A stretch of DNA of 51,272 nucleotides from Verrucomicrobiota bacterium (GTDB lineage: Bacteria > Verrucomicrobiota > Verrucomicrobiia > Chthoniobacterales > SZAS-18): NCBI GenBank assembly GCA_025353105.1, contig JANXRG010000078.1, forward strand, positions 1 through 51,272. Reading direction: 5' to 3'. The position numbers were made by a program, and so were the translations under genes. This document shows positions 6,198 to 17,433 of the stretch, one piece after another. The stretch's first letter is position 1. Every line of letters starts with the position of its first letter. The notes beneath the pieces are model-generated. The model ran no database searches. It was not told where the DNA came from and worked only from the letters and a program-made list of their open reading frames with translations.

Positions 6198-8762
6198 ATG
6201 AAACCCTTGTCGGCCCGCGAACGATTCAATATTTCCCGAATCGCGATCGCGTACCCGTGGCTCACAGTCGCGTTCTGGGTTGGCGTGGCCGTGGCGGGGG
6301 TCTTTGCGTTTCGAACGTTGCGCTATTCGCTTCTGCCGGACATCACGTTTCCCGTCGTGGTTGTCAATGCGGCCGGCCCAATGTCGGACGTTACGGAAAC
6401 GGCCGACCAACTTTCCCGTCCGATCGAGGCCCGCCTGAAGTCATTGGAAAACCTGAACGAAGTCCGCGCCTCGATTTACCCCGGCCGCGTCGCGGTCACG
6501 CTTTCGTTCAAGGTCGGAACCAATCTCGGACGCAGTGCGCGCCAGGTGGAGGCGGAACTTGAGTCGCTCAAGCTGCCGACCGGTGCGCAGTGGGAGGTCA
6601 TTGCCCTCAATCTGAACCAGACGTCGGTCGCCACCTACGCGATTTCCGCGTCCGAAAAATCACTGCGCGAGCTGGCCCAGATCGCCCACGAGAAAATTAT
6701 CCCGGCCCTCCAAAAGGCGCCCGGCGTGCTCGAAGTCACGTTGTTGGGTGAGGGCCCCGGGCTTTCCGGGGGTACCGCCGCCCGGCAGGCCCCGACGATC
6801 GTGCGGTTGAACGGGAAGGCGGTGCTCGCGCTCGACGTCATCAAGCGCGGCGACGCCAACACGCTCGACGTCGTTAAGGAACTAAAGGAGGTGGTTGGGA
6901 AACTCCCGGGCGAAATTCCCGGCGTGCAGCTTGCGCTCGCGCGCACGCAGGCCGAGTACATTCGCGAGGCGACCCACTCGACCGTGGAGGCTCTGCTCAT
7001 CGCCGTGGCGCTTTCGGTCCTGGTGATCTTCCCGTTCCTCTGGAGCTGGCCGGCGACGCTGATTTCCGCGCTCGCCATCCCGGCGTCGCTGCTGGGCACC
7101 GCGCTCGTCATGGCGCTTTTCGGATTTGAACTCGACACGATTACGTTGCTCGCTCTTGCGCTCGTCATCGGGATCATCATCGACGACGCGATCGTCGACG
7201 TGGAGAACATCGCGCGACATCTCGAGGACGGCAGCGCGTCGACCCGGAATGCGGCGCTCGATGCCACGCGCGAGATTGGCCTCACCGTGGCAGCGGCTAC
7301 GTTCACGATTGTAGCGGTGTTCCTTCCCGTGGGCTTGATGGGCGGGACGGTCGGTCAGTTTTTCAAACCCTTTGGCGTGACGGTGTCCGCGGCGGTGCTG
7401 ATATCGCTGCTCGTCGCGCGGACTCTCTCACCGATGCTCGCCGTCTTCTGGCTGAAGCCGATGCCGGCGCGCGGCCCCGGCGTAGTTTGGACCGCGGTCA
7501 GCGCCCGTTATCGTCGCACTTTGGAATGGGCACTGCAGCATCGCGGGACGGTCATCGGCCTGGCGCTCGCAAGCCTGGTGGGAGGGCTTGCGTTGGTGCC
7601 GCTCATCCCAAAAGGCTTCATGCCGCGACTCGATCGCGACGAATTCAAGATCGTGTACCACGCGGCGCCTGCGGATCCGGAACCGTTTGGATCCTCGCTA
7701 GCCGCGGCCGCGAAGATCGAGGACTTCACGCGCGCATTTCCCGATGTTGAAAGCCTTTACACCGTAGTTGGCTCGCCCGACGGCGATCCGGGCATTGGCG
7801 TCCTCTATGTCGGTCTGCGGAAGACCCGTCGGCTGCACACGGCGGTGATCCAGGATCGACTGCGGCGGGCGCTGCCCAAAATCGACGGGGTGACCACGAG
7901 CGTGGAGGACATTCCCTTCGTCGAGTTGGGCGATCAAAAGCCGATCGACTTTGCCTTGGTGGGGACGGATCGAGCGACTCTCGATCGGGTGGCCGCTGAC
8001 CTCGCGGCGCGGCTCCGCACCGTCCGGGGTTTCGCGGACGTGACGACCCCGGCTCTCGCCGGCGGCGAAGCACTGCACAACGAACATCTCGACGGGCTCG
8101 ACGCGGTTGGCATCAGCGCAAATCTGAGCGAGGGCCTGAGTCTTGGGGATGCCACGGAGAAGCTGACTGCGATTGCGCGCGAGGTGCTTCCCGCGAGTGT
8201 GTCACTTCAGCTCGGCGGCGATTCAGAAAACGTCGGAAACGTCTTTCGCGCGTTCGCCGTGACGCTTTGTCTTTCGGTCGCATGCATTCTTGCCGTGCTG
8301 CTCTTGCTCTTCCGCAATTGGGTGGACCCGGTCGTGATTGTCCTCTCGTTGCCGCTCGCGATCGTCGGCGCGGTCGTTGCGCTGCTCGTGGTGCGCAGTG
8401 AATTCGGCATGATCTCGCTGCTGGGCATCGTGTTTCTCTTCGGCCTCGTAAACAAGAACGCGATCCTGCTGGTGGATTATGCGAATCAAATCCGGGCCAC
8501 TGGCGTGGGCAGCGTGGAGGCGATTTTGCGCGCCGGCCCGGTGCGATTGCGGCCCATCCTGATGACCACGCTGGCCACGATTCTCGGCATGATGCCGGTC
8601 GCCATCGGGCTCGGGGTTGGCGCCGAGCTGCGCGCGCCGATGGCCATTGCGATCATTGGTGGATTGATCACCTCCACGCTGCTCAGCTTGATCGTCGTGC
8701 CGGTAGTTTATGTTCTGCTCGATCGCTGGCGGCGACGGCCAAAGATCCGTGCCGCTGATTGA
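6198..8762 (+). CDS. RND-family efflux permease, short form (854 aa)
   Basis: Proton-driven inner-membrane exporter of the AcrB/MdtB-like superfamily. Visible are a first TM segment (about 18-40), the periplasmic signature RYSLLPDITFPVVVV, TM2 from about residue 262, and the proton-relay aspartate pair in TM4 (GIIIDDAIVDVENI, about 328). A second TM set begins around residue 690 and contains the repeated LVNKNAILLVDYA motif. At 854 aa it is nearly 200 residues shorter than typical RND pumps; both periplasmic loops are about 210-220 aa instead of ~300, so docking or porter subdomains are reduced. No membrane-fusion or outer-membrane partner lies nearby. The neighbours on the right are on the other strand. 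Substrate unknown. Confidence 0.85.
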   Translation: MKPLSARERFNISRIAIAYPWLTVAFWVGVAVAGVFAFRTLRYSLLPDITFPVVVVNAAGPMSDVTETADQLSRPIEARLKSLENLNEVRASIYPGRVAVTLSFKVGTNLGRSARQVEAELESLKLPTGAQWEVIALNLNQTSVATYAISASEKSLRELAQIAHEKIIPALQKAPGVLEVTLLGEGPGLSGGTAARQAPTIVRLNGKAVLALDVIKRGDANTLDVVKELKEVVGKLPGEIPGVQLALARTQAEYIREATHSTVEALLIAVALSVLVIFPFLWSWPATLISALAIPASLLGTALVMALFGFELDTITLLALALVIGIIIDDAIVDVENIARHLEDGSASTRNAALDATREIGLTVAAATFTIVAVFLPVGLMGGTVGQFFKPFGVTVSAAVLISLLVARTLSPMLAVFWLKPMPARGPGVVWTAVSARYRRTLEWALQHRGTVIGLALASLVGGLALVPLIPKGFMPRLDRDEFKIVYHAAPADPEPFGSSLAAAAKIEDFTRAFPDVESLYTVVGSPDGDPGIGVLYVGLRKTRRLHTAVIQDRLRRALPKIDGVTTSVEDIPFVELGDQKPIDFALVGTDRATLDRVAADLAARLRTVRGFADVTTPALAGGEALHNEHLDGLDAVGISANLSEGLSLGDATEKLTAIAREVLPASVSLQLGGDSENVGNVFRAFAVTLCLSVACILAVLLLLFRNWVDPVVIVLSLPLAIVGAVVALLVVRSEFGMISLLGIVFLFGLVNKNAILLVDYANQIRATGVGSVEAILRAGPVRLRPILMTTLATILGMMPVAIGLGVGAELRAPMAIAIIGGLITSTLLSLIVVPVVYVLLDRWRRRPKIRAAD

Positions 8763-8775
8763 ATGGGACGGCTGA

Positions 8776-10068
8776 CTAGTAGGAGAAATTCGCGTTGGGT
8801 TCGGTCGTGCCGAGCGTACTGGTGGCGCTGAAGCCGTTCACCGTCGAGCTGAGGAAACTTCGGCGGTCAACGATAGGCCCGAAGACGTTGCCAGCGGCCA
8901 GGACCCAATCGGTGGTGTTGCCCGAGCAAGTATTTTTGATGATGAAATTGCCGGCCACATCCACGGTGACGCCTCTGCCGGAGCTGGTGCAGGTGTTCCC
9001 CTCGATGCGATTCTGTCCGCCGGTGGCGTGGATGCCTCCGACACTGCTGACGCTGCCGTTCGACGAGCAGACATTGCCGCGGATCAGGCAGCTGGCCACG
9101 CAGATGATTCCATCGAGGGTGTTGGATTTCGCCGTGCAGTCGGCGACCACGCAGCTGTTGTTCGTGAGGATGCCGTAGCCGAAGTTCTGGTACGCTGAGC
9201 AGTTCAAGATTGTGCAGCCTCCGCCGATATCCATGCCATCCCCGGTGTTCTGGTGCGTCGCAGAGTGGGTCACCGTGCAACCGAAGGCGACGGTGAATCC
9301 GGCGTTGTTGTTGGATTCAGCCACGCAGTTCGAAACTGTGCAGCCGTCTCCAATGGCGAAGCCGCTGCCCAAATTGCTGCTCGCCGAGCAATGCAGGACG
9401 GTGCATCCGGCAATCGTGGTGATGCCGGCGCCGGTGTTTTGCAAAGCCAGACTATTCGAGATCATGCAGCTGGCGTTGGCGGCAATGCCGCCGGCGGAGT
9501 TGCCCGCCGCCGAGCAGTTCAAGACCGTGCAACCAAAGTGCACCCGGATGCCGCTGCCGCCGTTTTCGGTCGCCTGCACGTCGACCACGCGGCTGTTTCT
9601 TGTAAAATTGGTCCGAAGGTCAACGCCATCACCACCCCAGCTGCGCACGGAGCCATTGATCACCGCGATATTTGTCAGGTCAAAGACGGTCGCGCTGACG
9701 CCGTCGAGCGAGCCGGGGACCCCCACCAAGTCGAAGCCGTTGAGATCAAGTGAAACCCCGCTGGAGGCAATGGCGATGCCGTGCTTGCCGCTGATGCCAA
9801 TGATGTTGCCCGTGAGGAAATAAGAGCCGGGCTGGGTGATCTTGAAGAGGCTGATGGCATCGCCGGGCGTGTTGGTGGCGTTGATCGCGATGCGGGACTC
9901 GAGTTTGGCGTCGAGCTTGGCGTCAAGCTGGTCGAGCGTCTTCATGGTCGGCGCGGGGGCGCCGGGCGGAGTGAGGGCGCCCTGGGCGAACAAGGAACCG
10001 GGAAGAAGGTACCAGGAGCAAAGGACGATGAGTGACGCACGCAGGGGCAGGCGGGATGGAGTATTCAT
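8776..10068 (-). CDS. Secreted right-handed beta-helix protein, type A copy 1
   Basis: Exported 430-aa repeat protein. The start at ATG 10068 gives a signal peptide (MNTPSRLPLRASLIVLCSWY.. ending SLFAQG) followed by the family stalk PPGAPAPTMKTLDQLDAKLD. After an N-terminal cap (ITQPGSYFLTGN..GVSLDLNGFDLVG) come repeated rungs of about 23 residues, each with a CTVxNC-like strand (for example CTVSNCVAESNNNAGF, CTILNCSAYQNFGYGI, CLIRGNVCSSNGS), typical of NosD/pectate-lyase-like parallel beta-helices. The tail LAAGNVFGPIVDRRSFLS is shared with the paralogue at 11670-12950. No catalytic residues are evident. It may be a surface adhesin, a polysaccharide-binding protein or a lyase-like scaffold. 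The upstream leader matches its paralogues; no Shine-Dalgarno sequence is present. Confidence 0.85.
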   Translation of the reverse strand: MNTPSRLPLRASLIVLCSWYLLPGSLFAQGALTPPGAPAPTMKTLDQLDAKLDAKLESRIAINATNTPGDAISLFKITQPGSYFLTGNIIGISGKHGIAIASSGVSLDLNGFDLVGVPGSLDGVSATVFDLTNIAVINGSVRSWGGDGVDLRTNFTRNSRVVDVQATENGGSGIRVHFGCTVLNCSAAGNSAGGIAANASCMISNSLALQNTGAGITTIAGCTVLHCSASSNLGSGFAIGDGCTVSNCVAESNNNAGFTVAFGCTVTHSATHQNTGDGMDIGGGCTILNCSAYQNFGYGILTNNSCVVADCTAKSNTLDGIICVASCLIRGNVCSSNGSVSSVGGIHATGGQNRIEGNTCTSSGRGVTVDVAGNFIIKNTCSGNTTDWVLAAGNVFGPIVDRRSFLSSTVNGFSATSTLGTTEPNANFSY

Positions 10069-10084
10069 GGTGAGGAATGAAATG

Positions 10085-10101
10085 TGGAACCCTGCATCGT
10101 A
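10085..10101 (-). promoter_or_regulatory. Family promoter-leader block, copy 1
   Basis: On the minus strand TACGAT (10101-10096) is followed after three bases by GGGTTCCA. The same TANNNN-N3-GGGTTCC arrangement precedes the paralogues, with the -10-like element and the GGTTCC core at nearly constant spacing. Here the distance to the ATG is longer than in the others. Confidence 0.5.
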
Positions 10102-10150
10102 AGGAGGGCAATCCGCCCGCGGCGAGGGCAAAGATCGACCACGCAGATTT

Positions 10151-10174
10151 GGGACGACCGGGGACGGTCGTCCC
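10151..10174. repeat. REP-like palindrome
   Basis: GGGACGACC (10151-10159) and GGTCGTCCC (10166-10174) form a perfect 9-bp stem with a 6-base loop. The same GGGACGAC/GTCGTCCC core occurs inside the coding region at 15528-15546, and a dispersed 28-bp repeat follows at 10187, so this looks like a composite repetitive element. Confidence 0.7.
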
Positions 10175-10186
10175 CACCTACATTAC

Positions 10187-10214
10187 CAACGCGCCCGGAG
10201 GTCGCGTTCCACCT
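10187..10214. repeat. Third copy of the 28-bp dispersed repeat
   Basis: Starts CAACGCGCCCGGAGGTCGCG and ends TTCCACCT. It matches the copy at 1055-1082 except for one base (G instead of T in TCGCG/TCTCG). It lies in the gap between two beta-helix genes. Confidence 0.7.
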
Positions 10215-10246
10215 GCGCAAACATCAATACGAGATGTTCGCCCCCG

Positions 10247-11509
10247 TCACGAATCGGGCCCTACGCCTGAGAGGTACCTGTGCTGCGCACTAAGTATGCC
10301 GGTAAGTCGGCACCCGATGGCTATCTCGGCAACCAGTGCGACGTTACCAGTAGTGTTATTGCCATAGCAGCCGATGGCTATGTTAGAACTCAATCCGACA
10401 CCGGTACTGCCTGAACTGGAGCCAAAGCAGGCGATCGCGATTAAGGCGCTTAGGCCCAAATCGCTCGAGCTTTGGCCATAGCAGTTGCTGGCGTTGGCGG
10501 TCCTCAGGCCGGTGCTGCTCGAGCTTTGGCCATAGGAGTTGCTGGCGACGTTGGCGTTTAGGCCGAAACCGGACGAACTGCTTCCATAACAATTGGAGGC
10601 GCTATCGGCATTGAGACCGGTACCGGAACTGGCGCTTTGACCAAAACAACCGTTGGCGCTGGTCGCGCGCAAACCGATGCCAGTGCCGAAACTATTAAAG
10701 CCGTAGCAGCCGGTGGCGGTGACGGCGTTGAGGCCGGACCCAGGAGACCCTATCGCCGTGCTTTCGCCCCGACAGTTTGTCGCGCTGTCGGCATCCAGAC
10801 CCGTCCCGCTAACGCTAGTGCCTACGCAATTCACGGCGGTTCTCGCGTAAATGCCGCGCTCGGTAGCGCTGCTACCCCCCGAGCTGTTGGCCACCGAAAG
10901 TGCGGAAATTCCCGTGTTGCCGCAGGACTCCGCGACAGAATTGTTCACGCTGCCGCCGGTAATGCCGTCCACACCCACCTGCCTGACCGTGCAGCGATCG
11001 ATCACGATCGATGGAAATAGGCCGAGATTAATCCCGTCGCCCGAACAGCTGGAGACCGATATGCCCTCGACTCGAACGTTCTTCGATAGTCCCAGCGCGC
11101 TGGGAAATCTAATCCCGTGCTGGAAACTGCCGCCGATGTGACCATTCAGAATTGTGATGTCTGTAACCGTACCGCCCACGGCCACTGCGATACCGCCAGC
11201 CGGGCTCGCGCTGGAAGAAATCGTGAAGCCATTGAGGTCGAGGGTTACGGTGCTCACGCTAATCGTGATCGCATTGCCGGTGGTCACGCTGAGATTATTT
11301 GTCAGGTAGTATGATCCCGAGGCGCTAATTGTAATCGGCAGCGTTGATATCGGCGTGCGCGCTTCAATCTGATCGAGCGTCTTCATCGTCGGCGCGGGGG
11401 CGCCGCGCGGAGTGAGTGCTCCCTGCGGGAACACGGAACCGGGAAGGACGAACAGTGAGGAGAGGATGAGGAGCGGCGCGCATCGTCTTAAACGGCTGGG
11501 GGTATTCAT
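10247..11509 (-). CDS. Secreted beta-helix protein, type B copy 1 (18-residue cysteine repeats)
   Basis: Exported 420-aa protein. Signal peptide (MNTPSRLRRCAPLLILSSLF..SVFPQG) and stalk GAPAPTMKTLDQIEARTPIS match the paralogues. The cap contains SGSYYLTNNLSVTTGNAI and TLDLNGFTISSSASPAGG. The C-terminal half has about ten rungs of an 18-residue repeat with the pattern GLNAxxAxNCYGxSxSGxG, for example TGLNADSASNCYGSSSSG and FGLNANVASNSYGQSSSS. The single cysteine sits at the same place in nearly every rung, suggesting a cysteine ladder in the solenoid core. The final AIGC rung precedes a short unique tail. Closest relative in the window is the gene at 16039-17328. No enzyme motif is recognised. 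Confidence 0.83.
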   Translation of the reverse strand: MNTPSRLRRCAPLLILSSLFVLPGSVFPQGALTPRGAPAPTMKTLDQIEARTPISTLPITISASGSYYLTNNLSVTTGNAITISVSTVTLDLNGFTISSSASPAGGIAVAVGGTVTDITILNGHIGGSFQHGIRFPSALGLSKNVRVEGISVSSCSGDGINLGLFPSIVIDRCTVRQVGVDGITGGSVNNSVAESCGNTGISALSVANSSGGSSATERGIYARTAVNCVGTSVSGTGLDADSATNCRGESTAIGSPGSGLNAVTATGCYGFNSFGTGIGLRATSANGCFGQSASSGTGLNADSASNCYGSSSSGFGLNANVASNSYGQSSSSTGLRTANASNCYGQSSSDLGLSALIAIACFGSSSGSTGVGLSSNIAIGCYGNNTTGNVALVAEIAIGCRLTGILSAQHRYLSGVGPDS

Positions 11510-11516
11510 GGCAAAC

Positions 11517-11534
11517 GGGGAACCCGGCAGCGTA
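11517..11534 (-). promoter_or_regulatory. Family promoter-leader block, copy 2
   Basis: On the minus strand TACGCT (11534-11529), three bases, then GGGTTCCCC, then GTTTGCC and the ATG at 11509. The GC-rich segment just upstream (GCTCGCCGCGCG) resembles those of the other copies. Confidence 0.55.
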
Positions 11535-11669
11535 GGGAAGGCAGCGCACGCGCGGCGAGCCCAAAAGTCGCTCCCGCGACGACAACGCTGGCCGGGTCGA
11601 GAGTGTTCTACGATCTTTCAGCACACCGGGCGATTAGGTTGTCCCGGGGCAGCCCGACGCGCGTCGTAA

Positions 11670-12950
11670 TTAGTACGAGAAATTCGCGTTTGGTTCGGTC
11701 GTGCCGAGCGTACTGGTGGCGCTGAAGCCGTTCACCGTCGAGCTGAGGAAACTTCGGCGGTCAACGATGGGCCCGAAGACGTTGCCAGCGGCCAGGACCC
11801 AATCGGTGGTGTTGCCCGAGCAAGTATTTTTGACAATAAAGTTCCCGGGCGCATCCACGGTGACTCCGCGGTCAGCGCCACTGCAGTTATTCCCTTCAAG
11901 GCGGTTTTCGCCGCCGGTGGTGTGGATGCCGGAGCCGAAGCCGGCTTTGCCATTGGACGAGCAGGAGTTGCCACGGATCAGACAGCCGGCAACGCAGATG
12001 ATGCCATCCAGGCTGTTGAAACTGACTGTGGAGTCTGTGATCAGGCAATCGCTGTTCGCGAGGATGCCGTTGCCGAAATTTTCGCGGACCGTGCAGTTTG
12101 AGACTGTGCAACCGGGTCCGGTCCGGATGCCGGTGCCGGCGCCGCTCGCCGCGCAATTTGAGACGGTGCAGCCGTAACCAACGTCGATGGCTGAACTGTT
12201 GAGGTCGGTACTGGACACCGTGCAGTTCAAGACCGTGCAGACGCCACCGGTGGAAATGCCACCGGTTGAGTTGCCAGAAACCACACAATTCGAAATCATG
12301 GCACCGCTGAATGTGACGATGCCGGTGCCGCTGTTGCCGCTCGCCTGACAGTTTGAGATTGCGCCCTCGACTGTCATGATGCCGTTGCTGGCGTTGTTGC
12401 GCGCAGCGCAGTTCACGGCCGTAAGGTCCCTGGCGGCGTGGAGTCCATTCCCTGTGTTGTCGCTGGTGGACACGTCCATGACGCGGCAGTTGTTTGCAAA
12501 ACTGGTGCTGAAGTTGATGCCATCACCGCCCCACTTGCGGACCGTCCCATTCGTCACTGCGATGTTCGCCAGATTCATCACGGTGGAGCTAACACCGTCG
12601 AGCGAGCCGGCGACGCCCACCACCTCAAAGCCGTTGAGATCCAGGGTGACCCCGCTGGAGGCGATGGCGATGCCATGCTTTCCGCTGACCCCGGCGATAT
12701 TGCCAGTCAGGTAGTACGAGCCGGGCTGCGTGATCTTGAAGAGGCTGGTCGCATCGCCGGGGGTATTGGCCGCGTTGACAGCGATACGCGGCTCAAGCTT
12801 GGCGTCGAGTTGGTCGAGCGTCTTCATGGTCGGCGCGGGGGCGCCGGGAGGAGCGAGCGTCCCCTGTGGAAACAGGGAGCCGGAAAGTACAAAGAGGGAG
12901 GAAATGGCCAACACGGAGACAAACGCGCGGCGACAGCTACGGGTATTCAT
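11670..12950 (-). CDS. Secreted right-handed beta-helix protein, type A copy 2
   Basis: Exported 426-aa paralogue of the gene at 8776-10068. The start at ATG 12950 gives MNTRSCRRAFVSVLAISSLF, a signal peptide ending SLFPQG, then the stalk APAPTMKTLDQLDAKLEPRI. The cap (ITQPGSYYLTGNIAGVSGKH) is followed by rungs such as CTVSNCAASGAGTGIRTGPG and CLITDSTVSFNSLDGIICVA. The last ~53 residues, FGPIVDRRSFLSSTVNGFSA and onward, are nearly identical to copy 1 at DNA level, whereas the central rungs have diverged, pointing to gene conversion or strong constraint on the tail. No catalytic signature. Function unknown, probably at the cell surface. Confidence 0.85.
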   Translation of the reverse strand: MNTRSCRRAFVSVLAISSLFVLSGSLFPQGTLAPPGAPAPTMKTLDQLDAKLEPRIAVNAANTPGDATSLFKITQPGSYYLTGNIAGVSGKHGIAIASSGVTLDLNGFEVVGVAGSLDGVSSTVMNLANIAVTNGTVRKWGGDGINFSTSFANNCRVMDVSTSDNTGNGLHAARDLTAVNCAARNNASNGIMTVEGAISNCQASGNSGTGIVTFSGAMISNCVVSGNSTGGISTGGVCTVLNCTVSSTDLNSSAIDVGYGCTVSNCAASGAGTGIRTGPGCTVSNCTVRENFGNGILANSDCLITDSTVSFNSLDGIICVAGCLIRGNSCSSNGKAGFGSGIHTTGGENRLEGNNCSGADRGVTVDAPGNFIVKNTCSGNTTDWVLAAGNVFGPIVDRRSFLSSTVNGFSATSTLGTTEPNANFSY

Positions 12951-12964
12951 GGCGGATGGGAATA

Positions 12965-12982
12965 GGGGAACCAAACACCGTA
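12965..12982 (-). promoter_or_regulatory. Family promoter-leader block, copy 3
   Basis: On the minus strand TACGGT (12982-12977), four bases, then GGTTCCCC and the ATG at 12950. A GC-rich segment CTCGCACCGCGGGCG precedes it, as in copy 1. Confidence 0.5.
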
Positions 12983-13194
12983 GCGGTCGCAACGCCCGCG
13001 GTGCGAGGAGAATCCTCCGGTACGCTCACGTGGAGGAGTTTCAACGTGACTCACACGGCCCTGGGCTACGTTCCGCTCGATCGCTGGCGTCGTCGTCCAT
13101 GGATTGGCTCGCCAACTGTGGGCCGACGCCGGTAAAACCCCACCCGAAGATCTTGTTCCAACCTCTTGGCTCAGGGACAACAGGCGCCATCACT

Positions 13195-13692
13195 GTGACA
13201 TTTCAACATCGCGTATTTGCCGTGGTTCTGACGCTGCCATTAATGGTCACGTCGATGCTTGCCCAGATTTACCTGCCGTCCACCAGCACTCCGCCTGCCG
13301 CACCGCCGCGCGATGAAATCAAGAGTGTCGCGCTCGCGCTGCGCGGCAATCCGAAGACGCTCTCAAAGATGAAACCGACCCCGGAGCAGGTCGCGCAGAT
13401 TGCGGCGACGCCGGAAGATGCGGTGAAGCTCAACGCCTACGTCGAGAAGATCTTCGCCACGATCCCGCCGGCGGGACTCACCGGCTCGCCCGATCAGACC
13501 GAGATTATGGTGAGCGACAGTCTTCCGGGCGGATACGAACGGACCAAGGGCCGGCTGAAGGCAGGCGTCGTCGTCTACGGGTTCAAATACGTCGAACCCG
13601 GCAAGGACGTCGGCATGGCCTTCGACGGTTTGATTAAATTGGGCGACCAATGGATCCTGATCCCCAAGTTGTGGCGCGCCTTTGGTGACTAA
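13195..13692 (+). CDS. Hypothetical secreted protein (165 aa)
   Basis: I do not recognise a family. From GTG 13195 the product begins with a signal peptide (TFQHRVFAVVLTLPLMVTSM, cleavage probably after LAQ or nearby), followed by a proline/threonine-rich linker and a helical segment (LSKMKPTPEQVAQIAATPED). The C-terminal part is strand-rich (GRLKAGVVVYGFKYVEPG, GLIKLGDQWILIPKLWRAFG) and resembles small 'measure and return' domains in which a parameter is assessed, but no motif supports a function. ATG 13243 is an alternative start but would cut the signal peptide. It is the only plus-strand gene within the beta-helix cluster, 244 bases from the divergent copy 2 start. Confidence 0.65.
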   Translation: MTFQHRVFAVVLTLPLMVTSMLAQIYLPSTSTPPAAPPRDEIKSVALALRGNPKTLSKMKPTPEQVAQIAATPEDAVKLNAYVEKIFATIPPAGLTGSPDQTEIMVSDSLPGGYERTKGRLKAGVVVYGFKYVEPGKDVGMAFDGLIKLGDQWILIPKLWRAFGD

Positions 13693-13782
13693 CCGGAGGT
13701 GAGCGCCGCCCCGTAAGGGTGATGTCCGCTACGACGGGAAAATCACTTGCGGTGGCTGTTACAAATTCGCGGCTGACCATGC

Positions 13783-14808
13783 CTACGGCGTGCCGAGAAA
13801 TTTGCCCGCGGCCGTCACGGTGCCGATCCCCTCGCAGCCGATGGCATTCCCGTTCGCCGCATTGATTGCCACCCCACCGTCGCGCCGGCCGCGGCAGAAG
13901 GTCGCGCTGCCACCGGCGGCGATATTGATCCCGTTGGTGCCGGAAGTGCTCACTCCCTGGCAATTGAGGGCGTTGGTCGCGTTGAGGCCGTTGCCGGAGA
14001 TGCTCGTGCCAAAGCTGTTGGTCACTTGTTGACCCTGGAGGCCATTGCCAGAAAGCGAGGTCCCGATGCAATTCTGGACCACGGAAAAGCCGCTCACGCC
14101 AATGGAACTCGCGACGGTTGAGACGGTATCTCCGATGCAATTGATGGCAGAATCAGCGGAGATGGCATTGTTTCCAATCGTCTCCGCGACGCAGTCGCGC
14201 ACCGTGCCCGCGTTGATCCCAAGGTCCCCACAGCCGCTCACCGTGCAACGCTCCACCACGAGCCTCGCGACGGTGTTGAAGCTCAGATTGATCCCGTCTC
14301 CTGCCATGCCGAGCACGCTGACTTCGGAGACCCGGATGTTCGCGCTGGTTGCGCTGATTGAGGTAATTCCGTTGATGAAGCCGCCCGTGGTGAAGGTGGC
14401 GGCAAACGTGGTGGTGCCGCGGATATGACCGTTCTTGATTACGATGTTCCGGCGCGTGCCGCTGACGTTCACGGCAGTTCCCGCGGCCGGGCTTGCCGTC
14501 GACGAAATGGTGAATCCGTTGAGATCAAGGGTCACTTGATCCACGCTGATGGTGATGGCAGACCCGGTGGTGACGGCGAGATTGCCGGTGAGATAGTAGC
14601 TGCCCGATGCATTGATCGTAATTGGAACAATGGAGATGGGTGCGCGTGACTCGAGCTTGGCGTCTACCTGATCGAGCGTCTTCATCGTCGGCGTGGGTGC
14701 TCCGGGGGGCGTCAGGCTTCCCTGCGGGAACAGGGAACAAGGAAGAAGGAACAAGGAGGCCAGGGCGATGAGCGCGGCGCGGCTGCGAAAGCAGGAAGGG
14801 GCATGCAT
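13783..14808 (-). CDS. Secreted beta-helix protein, short type B member
   Basis: Exported 341-aa paralogue. The start at ATG 14808 gives signal peptide MHAPSCFRSRAALIALASLF..LFPQG and stalk APTPTMKTLDQVDAKLESRA. The cap (SGSYYLTGNLAVTTGSAITI, TLDLNGFTISSTASPAAG) is of type B, but only about six loosely conserved rungs follow (for example NGLNATNALNCQGVSTSG), compared with ten or eleven in its relatives. It ends GNAIGCEGIGTV and a short tail KFLGTP. The reduced rung number suggests repeat contraction, or an older member from which the others expanded. No enzyme motif. Confidence 0.82.
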   Translation of the reverse strand: MHAPSCFRSRAALIALASLFLLPCSLFPQGSLTPPGAPTPTMKTLDQVDAKLESRAPISIVPITINASGSYYLTGNLAVTTGSAITISVDQVTLDLNGFTISSTASPAAGTAVNVSGTRRNIVIKNGHIRGTTTFAATFTTGGFINGITSISATSANIRVSEVSVLGMAGDGINLSFNTVARLVVERCTVSGCGDLGINAGTVRDCVAETIGNNAISADSAINCIGDTVSTVASSIGVSGFSVVQNCIGTSLSGNGLQGQQVTNSFGTSISGNGLNATNALNCQGVSTSGTNGINIAAGGSATFCRGRRDGGVAINAANGNAIGCEGIGTVTAAGKFLGTP

Positions 14809-14815
14809 GGCAATA

Positions 14816-14833
14816 GGGGAACCCCGTCTTTTA
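14816..14833 (-). promoter_or_regulatory. Family promoter-leader block, copy 4
   Basis: On the minus strand TAAAAG (14833-14828), three bases, then GGGGTTCCCC-containing sequence, TATTGCC and the ATG at 14808. The stretch AAGACGGGGTTCCCC is shared exactly with copy 5. Confidence 0.5.
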
Positions 14834-15012
14834 GGTGGGCGCCGGGCTCCCAGGCGAGAGGAAATGCCAGTGCCGGCGACTTATCTTGGCCGGCTCTGCG
14901 CTCTGGGCGCGAGCCGGCTTTCTGGCACGCGAAGAAAATTCTCGCCAAGTTCTCGTCATTCCAGAACGAAAGCTCAGGGCCACCCGATTCATCAGGCGCG
15001 CGTGCTGACGTT

Positions 15013-15957
15013 TCAGAACTGCGGCGGCAGGATTTCGTATAAATCTTTGGGCACCGAGAACAAATCCCCAGGGTCGATCTTCTTCCGGTCGATGTGGCTG
15101 ACTTTGAACGACAGGCGCTCCTGGCCGCCGGGTTCGCTGCGCAGGGTGGCTTCGAGCGGGAAAAGCGATTTCCTTTGCAGCAGTTCGACCCATTGCTCTT
15201 CGATCATCTGTGGTCCGAAACGGCGGACGTTGTAGTCGCGTTGCAGCAAACGAAATGGAAATAACGCGGCGTCGTTCGTCGCCCAAATCTCAAAATTTTC
15301 TCCGCGGTCGCTCATCGTGTAGAGCGTGCAATCGAATCCTTGAATCTTTTTTGTCTTCTCTGTTTTCTTCAATTCAGCTGCGCCAAACATTCCCGGCATC
15401 GGCGGCGGCATCATCGGCATTCCGGCTGCGCCCGAGCCTGACGAAGGCATTGGCGGAATCGGTGGCATAGAAGCGATCGGCAGCGGAGTCGGAAATCCTG
15501 GTGGCGGCGACATCTTTGGAGCTGTAGGGGACGACGTTGTCGTCCCTCGGAAGCCAGCGGCTTCCCCTCCAGAATTCGGATTCAGTGGGGGCGCGCCCGG
15601 TTGCGCTCGATCCGGCAGCTGCCGGATTAGATCGACATGTAGGAAGGTCGAGTTGTGCGGGAAAATGATGGTCAGCTTCTTCGCATCAAGATCGACAATG
15701 TTGATCGGCTCGAGCTTGCTCCCGCTGTTCTCAATGCGCAGTTCGTTTTCTTTGCGCGTGAAAAGAAATTGCGTTGTCGCAGCGCCGCTGCGGGTAAGTG
15801 TCGCAGTAACTCTGCCTTCGAACGCAGCGCCCTTCTCCGCGGCAGGAATTTCACGCGATGAAACGGCGCAAGTAAGTGCCAGCGCGATCGCAAAACGTCC
15901 TCTGCGGTTGATTCCAGCAAGAGAAAAAATTCCGAGGATGAGCAAGAACAGAAGCAT
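15013..15957 (-). CDS. Exported DUF4412-like protein with a repeat-derived proline-rich insert
   Basis: A 314-aa protein with an N-terminal hydrophobic segment (MLLFLLILGIFSLAG, then a second stretch FAIALALTCAVSS). The two conserved parts are FEGRVTATLTRSGAATTQFL with IIFPHNSTFLHVDL, and KIQGFDCTLYTMSDRGENFE with FPLEATLRSEPGGQ; these resemble periplasmic DUF4412-type domains, which have no assigned biochemistry. Between them, residues ~120-200 are rich in Pro, Gly and Met (PPPGFPTPLP, MPPIPPMP, MPMMPPPMPG). Part of that linker (GFRGTTTSSPTAP) is encoded by a palindromic repeat pair. No Shine-Dalgarno sequence and no shared leader with the beta-helix genes around it. Confidence 0.65.
   Translation of the reverse strand: MLLFLLILGIFSLAGINRRGRFAIALALTCAVSSREIPAAEKGAAFEGRVTATLTRSGAATTQFLFTRKENELRIENSGSKLEPINIVDLDAKKLTIIFPHNSTFLHVDLIRQLPDRAQPGAPPLNPNSGGEAAGFRGTTTSSPTAPKMSPPPGFPTPLPIASMPPIPPMPSSGSGAAGMPMMPPPMPGMFGAAELKKTEKTKKIQGFDCTLYTMSDRGENFEIWATNDAALFPFRLLQRDYNVRRFGPQMIEEQWVELLQRKSLFPLEATLRSEPGGQERLSFKVSHIDRKKIDPGDLFSVPKDLYEILPPQF
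15528..15565. repeat. REP-like palindrome pair inside a coding sequence
   Basis: GGGACGAC (15528-15535) pairs with GTCGTCCC (15539-15546) and, two bases on, GGAAGCC (15549-15555) pairs with GGCTTCC (15559-15565). The first palindrome core matches that at 10151-10174 in an intergenic gap. Here it stays in frame within the linker of the DUF4412-like gene. Confidence 0.7.
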
Positions 15958-16038
15958 GAGTGAGGGTAAGAAATTTAAAATCCGACCTGAGGCCGCCGAT
16001 CTCAGGTGTTTGATCTCGCGCTTTCGGTTCTCAACCCG

Positions 16039-17328
16039 TTAAGGTGGAAAATAGTTACGGGTGAAAGAGATGGATGTGTATGTGCAGCCGATGGCAGTAC
16101 CTACATTGAGACCCGTGCCGGAAGTGCTGCCCCCGTAACAGCCGGAGGCAAGGTTTGCGTAGAGCCCGAAACTGGACGTGCTGCGTCCGTCGCAGGTGGA
16201 GGCGGAGACTGCGCCCAAGCCAATACCGGAAGTGCTCTGACCCGTGCAGGCGGACGCCACGGATGCGTATAGGCCAAAGCCTGAATCACTGACCCCGCAA
16301 GAAGAAGTGGCCGAGAATGCGAAAAGGCCTTCGTTCGAGCTAGCACTCTGACCGAAACAACCAGTGGCCGTGGTCGCACTGAGACCGGGGCCTGTGTTGG
16401 CGACTCCGTAACAACCAGTGGCCGTGGTCGCATTGAGACCGGTGCCAGTGTTGGCGACTCCGTAACAACCGTTGGCGCTGGACGCGCTCAGGCCGGTGCC
16501 CGTCCCATTAACGTTGGATCCGTAACAGCCAGTGGCGGTGGCGGCGTTGAGACCTGTTCCAGTGGAACTCAGCGCCGTGCTTTCGCCTCGACAACCTGTC
16601 GCACTGTCCGCATCGAGCCCCGTTCCGCTGACGCTGGTGCCGACGCAATTCACGGCGGTGCTCGCGTAAACGCCGCGCTCGCTCGCGCTGGAACTCCCCA
16701 CGCTGTTTGTCGCCGACTTTGCGGTGATCCCCGTGCTGCCGCAGTTCTCCGCCACGGAATTGTTCACGCTGCCGCCGGTGATGCCGGCCACGCCTACTTG
16801 CTGAACCGTGCAGCGATCGATCACGATCGATAAGAAAAAACCGAGATTGATGCCATCGCCCGAACAGCCCGAGACCGATATCCCCTCGACGCGAACATTC
16901 TTCAATAAACCCAACGCGCCGGAATATCTGATCCCGTGCTGGAAATTCCCGACGATGTGGCCGTTCAGAATTGAGATGTCTTTGAGGCTGTTGCCGGTGG
17001 CGATGGCCGTGCCGCCCGCCGGGCTCGCGGTAGAAGAAATGGTAAAGCCGTTGAGATCGAGGGTCACGTTGTTGGCGGAGATGACGATCGCATTCCCTGT
17101 CGTCACCGAAAGGTTCGCCGTGAGATAATAGGAGCCGGGAGCGCTGATCGGAAACGGCGCGGATGAGATCGGCGTGCGCGCTTCGACTTGATCGAGCGTC
17201 TTCATCGTCGGAGCGGGCGCGCCGGGAGGAGCAAGCGGGCCCTGCGGGAACAAGGAACAAGGAAGAAGGAACAAGCAGGAAAGGGCGACGAGCGAGGCGC
17301 GTGGACGAAGGCAGGAACGGGTAGTCAT
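16039..17328 (-). CDS. Secreted beta-helix protein, type B copy 2 (longest cysteine-repeat array)
   Basis: Exported 429-aa paralogue of the gene at 10247-11509. The start at ATG 17328 gives MTTRSCLRPRASLVALSCLF as signal peptide start, ending LFPQG, and stalk APAPTMKTLDQVEARTPISS. The cap has PGSYYLTANLSVTTGNAIVI. About eleven 18-residue rungs follow, including GTGLNATTATGCYGVANT and GPGLSATTATGCFGQSAS, which are encoded by an almost exact 54-bp tandem duplication. The array ends with TAIGC and a tail NYFPP. Regular Cys spacing again suggests a ladder. Many glycine, serine and threonine residues make phase-variable length changes plausible. Function unknown. Confidence 0.83.
   Translation of the reverse strand: MTTRSCLRPRASLVALSCLFLLPCSLFPQGPLAPPGAPAPTMKTLDQVEARTPISSAPFPISAPGSYYLTANLSVTTGNAIVISANNVTLDLNGFTISSTASPAGGTAIATGNSLKDISILNGHIVGNFQHGIRYSGALGLLKNVRVEGISVSGCSGDGINLGFFLSIVIDRCTVQQVGVAGITGGSVNNSVAENCGSTGITAKSATNSVGSSSASERGVYASTAVNCVGTSVSGTGLDADSATGCRGESTALSSTGTGLNAATATGCYGSNVNGTGTGLSASSANGCYGVANTGTGLNATTATGCYGVANTGPGLSATTATGCFGQSASSNEGLFAFSATSSCGVSDSGFGLYASVASACTGQSTSGIGLGAVSASTCDGRSTSSFGLYANLASGCYGGSTSGTGLNVGTAIGCTYTSISFTRNYFPP
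16361..16468. repeat. 54-bp tandem duplication in a beta-helix array
   Basis: Two consecutive 54-bp units, beginning CCAGTGGCCGTGGTCGCA at 16361 and at 16415, are nearly identical over their first 50 or so bases. Each encodes exactly one 18-residue rung, so the protein has gained or can lose whole rungs by unit duplication. Confidence 0.75.
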
Positions 17329-17335
17329 GGCGAAA

Positions 17336-17353
17336 GGGGAACCCCGTCTTGTA
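17336..17353 (-). promoter_or_regulatory. Family promoter-leader block, copy 5
   Basis: On the minus strand TACAAG (17353-17348), three bases, then GGGGTTCCCC-type box, TTTCGCC and the ATG at 17328. It lies about 80 bases from the divergent antiporter start. Confidence 0.5.
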
Positions 17354-17433
17354 GCGGTTGCGCCACGCCGCCGGCCAGCCAATTCGAACATTTCAATTGT
17401 TCGCGATTAACAATACCGATAGGCCAGTCTGTG

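Follow-up and report, generated by a model that had tools for sequence, protein, structure and literature searches.

Closest described systems

Right-handed parallel beta-helix proteins are represented by the Pfam profile PF13229 (Beta_helix) and by NCBIfam TIGR03804. A second group, the unnamed QGxLTPPGAPAPTMKTLDQ stalk family, is found in Verrucomicrobia and Planctomycetota, where signal peptide, stalk and body follow one another at many loci; a search of genome contigs gave 354 related stretches, and the best 80 of them come mostly from Phycisphaerales and Verrucomicrobia. The chlamydial Pmp proteins, from the same superphylum, are likewise multicopy, secreted and beta-helical (PMC10715098). 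Pmp proteins are autotransporters with FxxN/GGAI repeats; no autotransporter domain match was obtained for the proteins studied here. Concerning translation, a published survey reported 10% Shine-Dalgarno use in Spartobacteria, a class of Verrucomicrobiota (PMC10783764). A description of the upstream block presented below was not found in the literature.

Five paralogous genes in the window

The window, that is, the whole stretch of 51,272 nucleotides analysed, is one contig (C17) of an assembly of 3.72 Mb in 121 contigs. It contains five paralogous genes, here called A to E, all on the minus strand, spanning 8776-17328 and with products of 341-430 aa (Table 1). Each encodes a signal peptide (judged by eye), a stalk of the form QGxLxPxGAPxPTMKTLDQ and a repetitive body, the layout of the stalk family, of which a profile search found 12 members in the genome. 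A 175-nt stretch comprising the upstream block, the signal and the stalk occurs five times, with 61-81% identity to one reference copy. The first-pass annotation had described five genes with a common signal/stalk module and had listed a TA-rich hexamer for each, and all of these were confirmed.

Likeness to the right-handed parallel beta-helix proteins lies in the profile match of C (51.4 bits against a gathering cut-off of 25.9) and in the AlphaFold model of E, a repetitive all-beta solenoid with a mean pLDDT of 83.5 and repeating strands at 51-422. The model has the regular solenoid of short beta strands that characterizes the beta-helix fold, handedness not being part of this result. On the other side, A, B, D and E had no Pfam match at E <= 0.01-0.1, a sequence search of solved structures with C found no match, and the structures nearest to the model of E, beta-helix proteins that include alginate epimerases and tailspikes, match it weakly (best E 1.2e-4, TM about 0.23-0.36), so that no enzyme activity is implied. 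Four neighbouring frames were scanned against Pfam; the one at 13195-13689 had no match, and the neighbours suggested no pathway for the beta-helix family.

Table 1. Genes, upstream blocks and neighbours in the window
Feature	Coordinates	Strand	Description
Gene A (P0005, 430 aa)	8776..10068	-	Signal peptide, stalk, beta-helix type body, C-terminal PNANFSY
Gene B (P0001, 420 aa)	10247..11509	-	Signal peptide, stalk, body with short Cys-containing beta-helix coils; subfamily 1
Gene C (P0002, 426 aa)	11670..12950	-	Pfam Beta_helix PF13229, E 1.2e-13
Gene D (P0003, 341 aa)	13783..14808	-	Subfamily 1
Gene E (P0004, 429 aa)	16039..17328	-	Subfamily 1; AlphaFold all-beta solenoid
Block of A	10080..10134	-	CTCGCC 10121-10126, TACGAT 10096-10101, GGTTCCAC 10084-10091; TA to ATG 33 nt
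Block of B	11513..11567	-	CTCGCC 11554-11559, TACGCT 11529-11534, GGTTCCCC 11517-11524; TA to ATG 25 nt
Block of C	12961..13015	-	CTCGCA 13002-13007, TACGGT 12977-12982, GGTTCCCC 12965-12972; TA to ATG 32 nt
Block of D	14812..14866	-	CTCGCC 14853-14858, TAAAAG 14828-14833, GGTTCCCC 14816-14823; TA to ATG 25 nt
Block of E	17332..17386	-	CTGGCC 17373-17378, TACAAG 17348-17353, GGTTCCCC 17336-17343; TA to ATG 25 nt
AcrB-type efflux pump	6198-8759		Upstream neighbour; Pfam scan
DUF4412 protein	between D and E		Pfam scan
Sodium/calcium exchanger			Divergent from E; Pfam scan

Repeats were also observed within the coding regions. At their 3' ends A and C (8777-9076 and 11671-11970) are 85% identical across 300 nt; the final two 90-column stretches of the pair reach 98 and 92% identity and the middles 54-59%, a pattern suggestive of local gene conversion. 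Imperfect tandem repeats of a 7-nt unit (GGAACAA, about four copies) lie in the signal-peptide coding part of D (14727-14757) and E (17247-17275) and, since the unit is not a multiple of three, slippage there would shift the frame. In gene E a 54-nt tandem repeat (16352-16500, 2.8 copies) falls in the region of the beta-helix coils.

Architecture and conservation of the upstream block

Read on the coding strand, the block consists of a CTCGCC-like, -35-like box, 19 nt, a TA-NNNN hexamer, exactly 4 nt and a conserved core, GGTTCCCC in four of the five window genes. The upstream box, more fully (TT)NNN-CTCGCC, keeps a fixed distance from the hexamer. Two further family genes, on contigs C85 and C105, also carry the block, the second with the core GATTCCCC. 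The geometry from the CTCGCC box to GGTTCC is constant in all seven copies, while the distance to the start codon varies: from TA to ATG there are 25 nt in B, D, E and the C85 gene, and 32-33 nt in A, C and the C105 gene. The succession of a TA hexamer and GG(G)TTCC, as proposed in the first-pass annotation, is therefore present in all five window genes, but with a spacing of always 4 nt instead of 3-4, and the idea that the start codon follows at a fixed distance did not hold.

Pairwise identity among the copies is 0.26-0.31 beyond position -33 from TA, 0.65 at -24 to -12, 0.71 in the hexamer, 0.42-0.56 between boxes and 0.93, its peak, in GGTTCCCC, so that conservation drops sharply to background about 33 nt upstream of the hexamer. 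Because the block model was built from the seven copies themselves, leave-one-out scoring served as the independent test: using a 55-nt window, every member scored higher than any of the 876,268 background positions, the background statistics being those of a 448-kb genome sample. A chance origin of the block is excluded. With the 33 nt upstream of TA alone D and E cannot be separated from the background, and the evidence for these two consequently rests on the part from TA to GGTTCCCC. We also considered a palindromic operator, GGGG-TT-CCCC, and rejected it, since its left G's vary and its right C's are nearly invariant, which makes the sequence not symmetric.

A probable promoter rather than a translation signal

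In about 150 sampled ORFs of this genome, TANNNT is commonest 10-24 nt before ATG, indicating that short leaders are normal here, and Shine-Dalgarno-like words before ATG show no excess over control stretches. Compared with a sigma-70 promoter (a -10 box TANNNT and a -35 box separated by 16-19 nt), five of the seven hexamers fit, and equally fit the ordinary TANNNT of the genome; the box lies 19 nt upstream and reads CTCGCC, not TTGACA. Two observations speak against a plain core promoter: the hexamers of D and E (TAAAAG and TACAAG) do not end in T, a base that is important in a sigma-70 -10 box, and GGTTCCCC exceeds both promoter boxes in conservation.

Weighing these data, we favour, with a probability of roughly 0.7, the reading that the block is a core promoter together with the 5' end of the mRNA, belonging to a promoter/signal/stalk module that has been passed among paralogs with its boxes under selection. 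The block would then define one class of promoters within a multicopy family whose members are secreted right-handed beta-helix proteins, and RNA polymerase would read the -10 hexamer (TACGAT and its variants) and the CTCGCC box of the -35 region 19 nt upstream. Transcription would start about 10-12 nt after TA, and GGUUCCCC would accordingly form the first stretch of a leader of 15-23 nt that has no Shine-Dalgarno sequence. Promoter activity, a transcription start near GGUUCCCC and recombination as the route of sharing are what we infer from the sequences.

GGTTCC had previously been noted to sit where a ribosome-binding site would be expected. It is true that it lies 15-23 nt before ATG in an organism with no Shine-Dalgarno signal, and it might be imagined to act as a substitute for a ribosome-binding site; this is very improbable, because the distance from GGTTCC to ATG varies by 8 nt whereas that to the TA hexamer is fixed, and because GGTTCC occurs at that place in about 1% of the sampled genes, the same as in the control. 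Tied as it is to the hexamer and not to ATG, in a sample with no Shine-Dalgarno enrichment, it does not behave as a ribosome-binding site. Nor does the block offer a purine-rich match to the anti-Shine-Dalgarno sequence with a constant spacing to the start codon. No Shine-Dalgarno-like sequence was seen in the leaders of the block-bearing genes, and a 16S rRNA for checking the anti-Shine-Dalgarno sequence was not found in this assembly.

Distribution of the block and the question of a regulator

The first-pass annotation proposed a whole-genome scan, with the block shared by most family members as support. The model search of the genome recovered the seven copies only (E <= 2e-9; the next match had E = 3.6). 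The scan thus added two family genes, but five of the 12 members (on C115, C27, C67, C29 and C2) and all non-family genes are without the block, and it is not general to the family. As a candidate genome-wide regulon we inspected the other matches to TANNNN-N3-6-GGGTTCC with their downstream frames, and rejected it: the only family members downstream of such a match are those that bear the block. Searches of two congeners gave nothing of note, and across 38 genomes of the order (37 relatives) the one other match at E <= 0.01 was weak and partial. Upstream regions of stalk-family genes in Phycisphaerales, inspected by eye, differ in that they have no block and many have purine-rich, Shine-Dalgarno-like stretches.

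In one of the congeners, G001, four family members are preceded by another block, TGTCGTATT-N21-TA, which has six matches genome-wide in total; its internal spacing is fixed and its distance to ATG is variable. Three further loci of this congener (L072, L079, L205) show, by eye, GTAAC(C), then after 15-17 nt TTTAG or TACGAG, before family members, possibly a further promoter class. In the genome of the window two block-lacking genes, L036 on C27 and L038 on C29, have in common another conserved leader, CGGCCACTTCAnCTCCGGAG..., before ATGAAAA, which is perhaps a second promoter class.

It had been suggested that conservation of the block points to one regulator or one sigma factor. What stands of this is that the block is promoter-like, family-specific and constrained, with flanks at background identity; a dedicated factor is not required. 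An alternative sigma factor or a transcription factor could run the seven genes as a regulon, with CTCGCC and/or GGTTCCCC as its site, and such a factor would account for boxes far more conserved than their spacers and confined to this family, for the near invariance of GGTTCCCC and for a congener having its own family-linked motif at a fixed position. We consider this unlikely. Most hexamers resemble the ordinary -10 boxes seen before other genes and call for no dedicated sigma factor; descent together with 5'-end exchange among paralogs already explains the sharing of the block without requiring a regulator; moreover, five members lack the block, and a regulon would be expected to include sites at genes outside one homologous family, while the block occurs only upstream of the seven homologs. 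Co-expression of the seven genes is likely, and co-regulation by a dedicated regulator is possible. The block is probably neither a ribosome-binding site nor the mark of a genome-wide regulon; it looks like an ordinary type of core promoter and mRNA start, specific to the family and under constraint.

History of the 5' module

In the tree of the bodies a single clade of block-bearing genes is strongly rejected (delta lnL 105, p-AU 1.2e-49), and block-lacking and congener genes fall inside both body groups; of the three congener members with TGTCGTATT-N21-TA that could be placed, L207 and L209 are in one group and L062 in the other. The tree of signal and stalk, in contrast, groups the seven (support 86/90), and these N-terminal data, 48 columns in all, weakly reject the body groupings, which were named after the trees were seen (p-AU 0.011-0.018). 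This conflict favours exchange or homogenization of 5' ends among paralogs.

Leader length tracks body lineage (long in A, C and the C105 gene, short in B, D and E), and this fits equally well a vertical descent with two losses. The block could then be ancestral in the lineage, inherited with no exchange, and lost with the signal peptides in C115 and in C2/C27/C29/C67; by our own reading of the 12-gene tree two losses suffice. We hold this to be rather doubtful, given that congener members without the block are nested in both body clades, that the 25-row tree calls for five changes or more, and that the N-terminal data weakly reject the body groupings. Under the favoured reading, promoter, signal peptide and stalk would make up a 5' module that moves as a unit between paralogs whose bodies belong to different lineages; duplication would be followed by recombination or gene conversion, and selection would then maintain the three boxes.

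Implications

A more speculative and quite improbable reading is that GGUUCCCC is a 5' mRNA tag for a dedicated factor or small RNA, and the 5' module an exchangeable cassette, one per species; if true, different beta-helix bodies would be placed under one control in a bacterium that makes no use of Shine-Dalgarno sequences. The preferred reading, that of a core promoter shared among paralogs, gives a little-studied, Shine-Dalgarno-poor lineage a concrete and testable promoter for one of its multicopy families of secreted proteins, and suggests that the promoter-signal ends of paralogs may be swapped separately from the bodies. Confirmation by 5'-end mapping would make it useful for annotating promoters and short leaders in such genomes.
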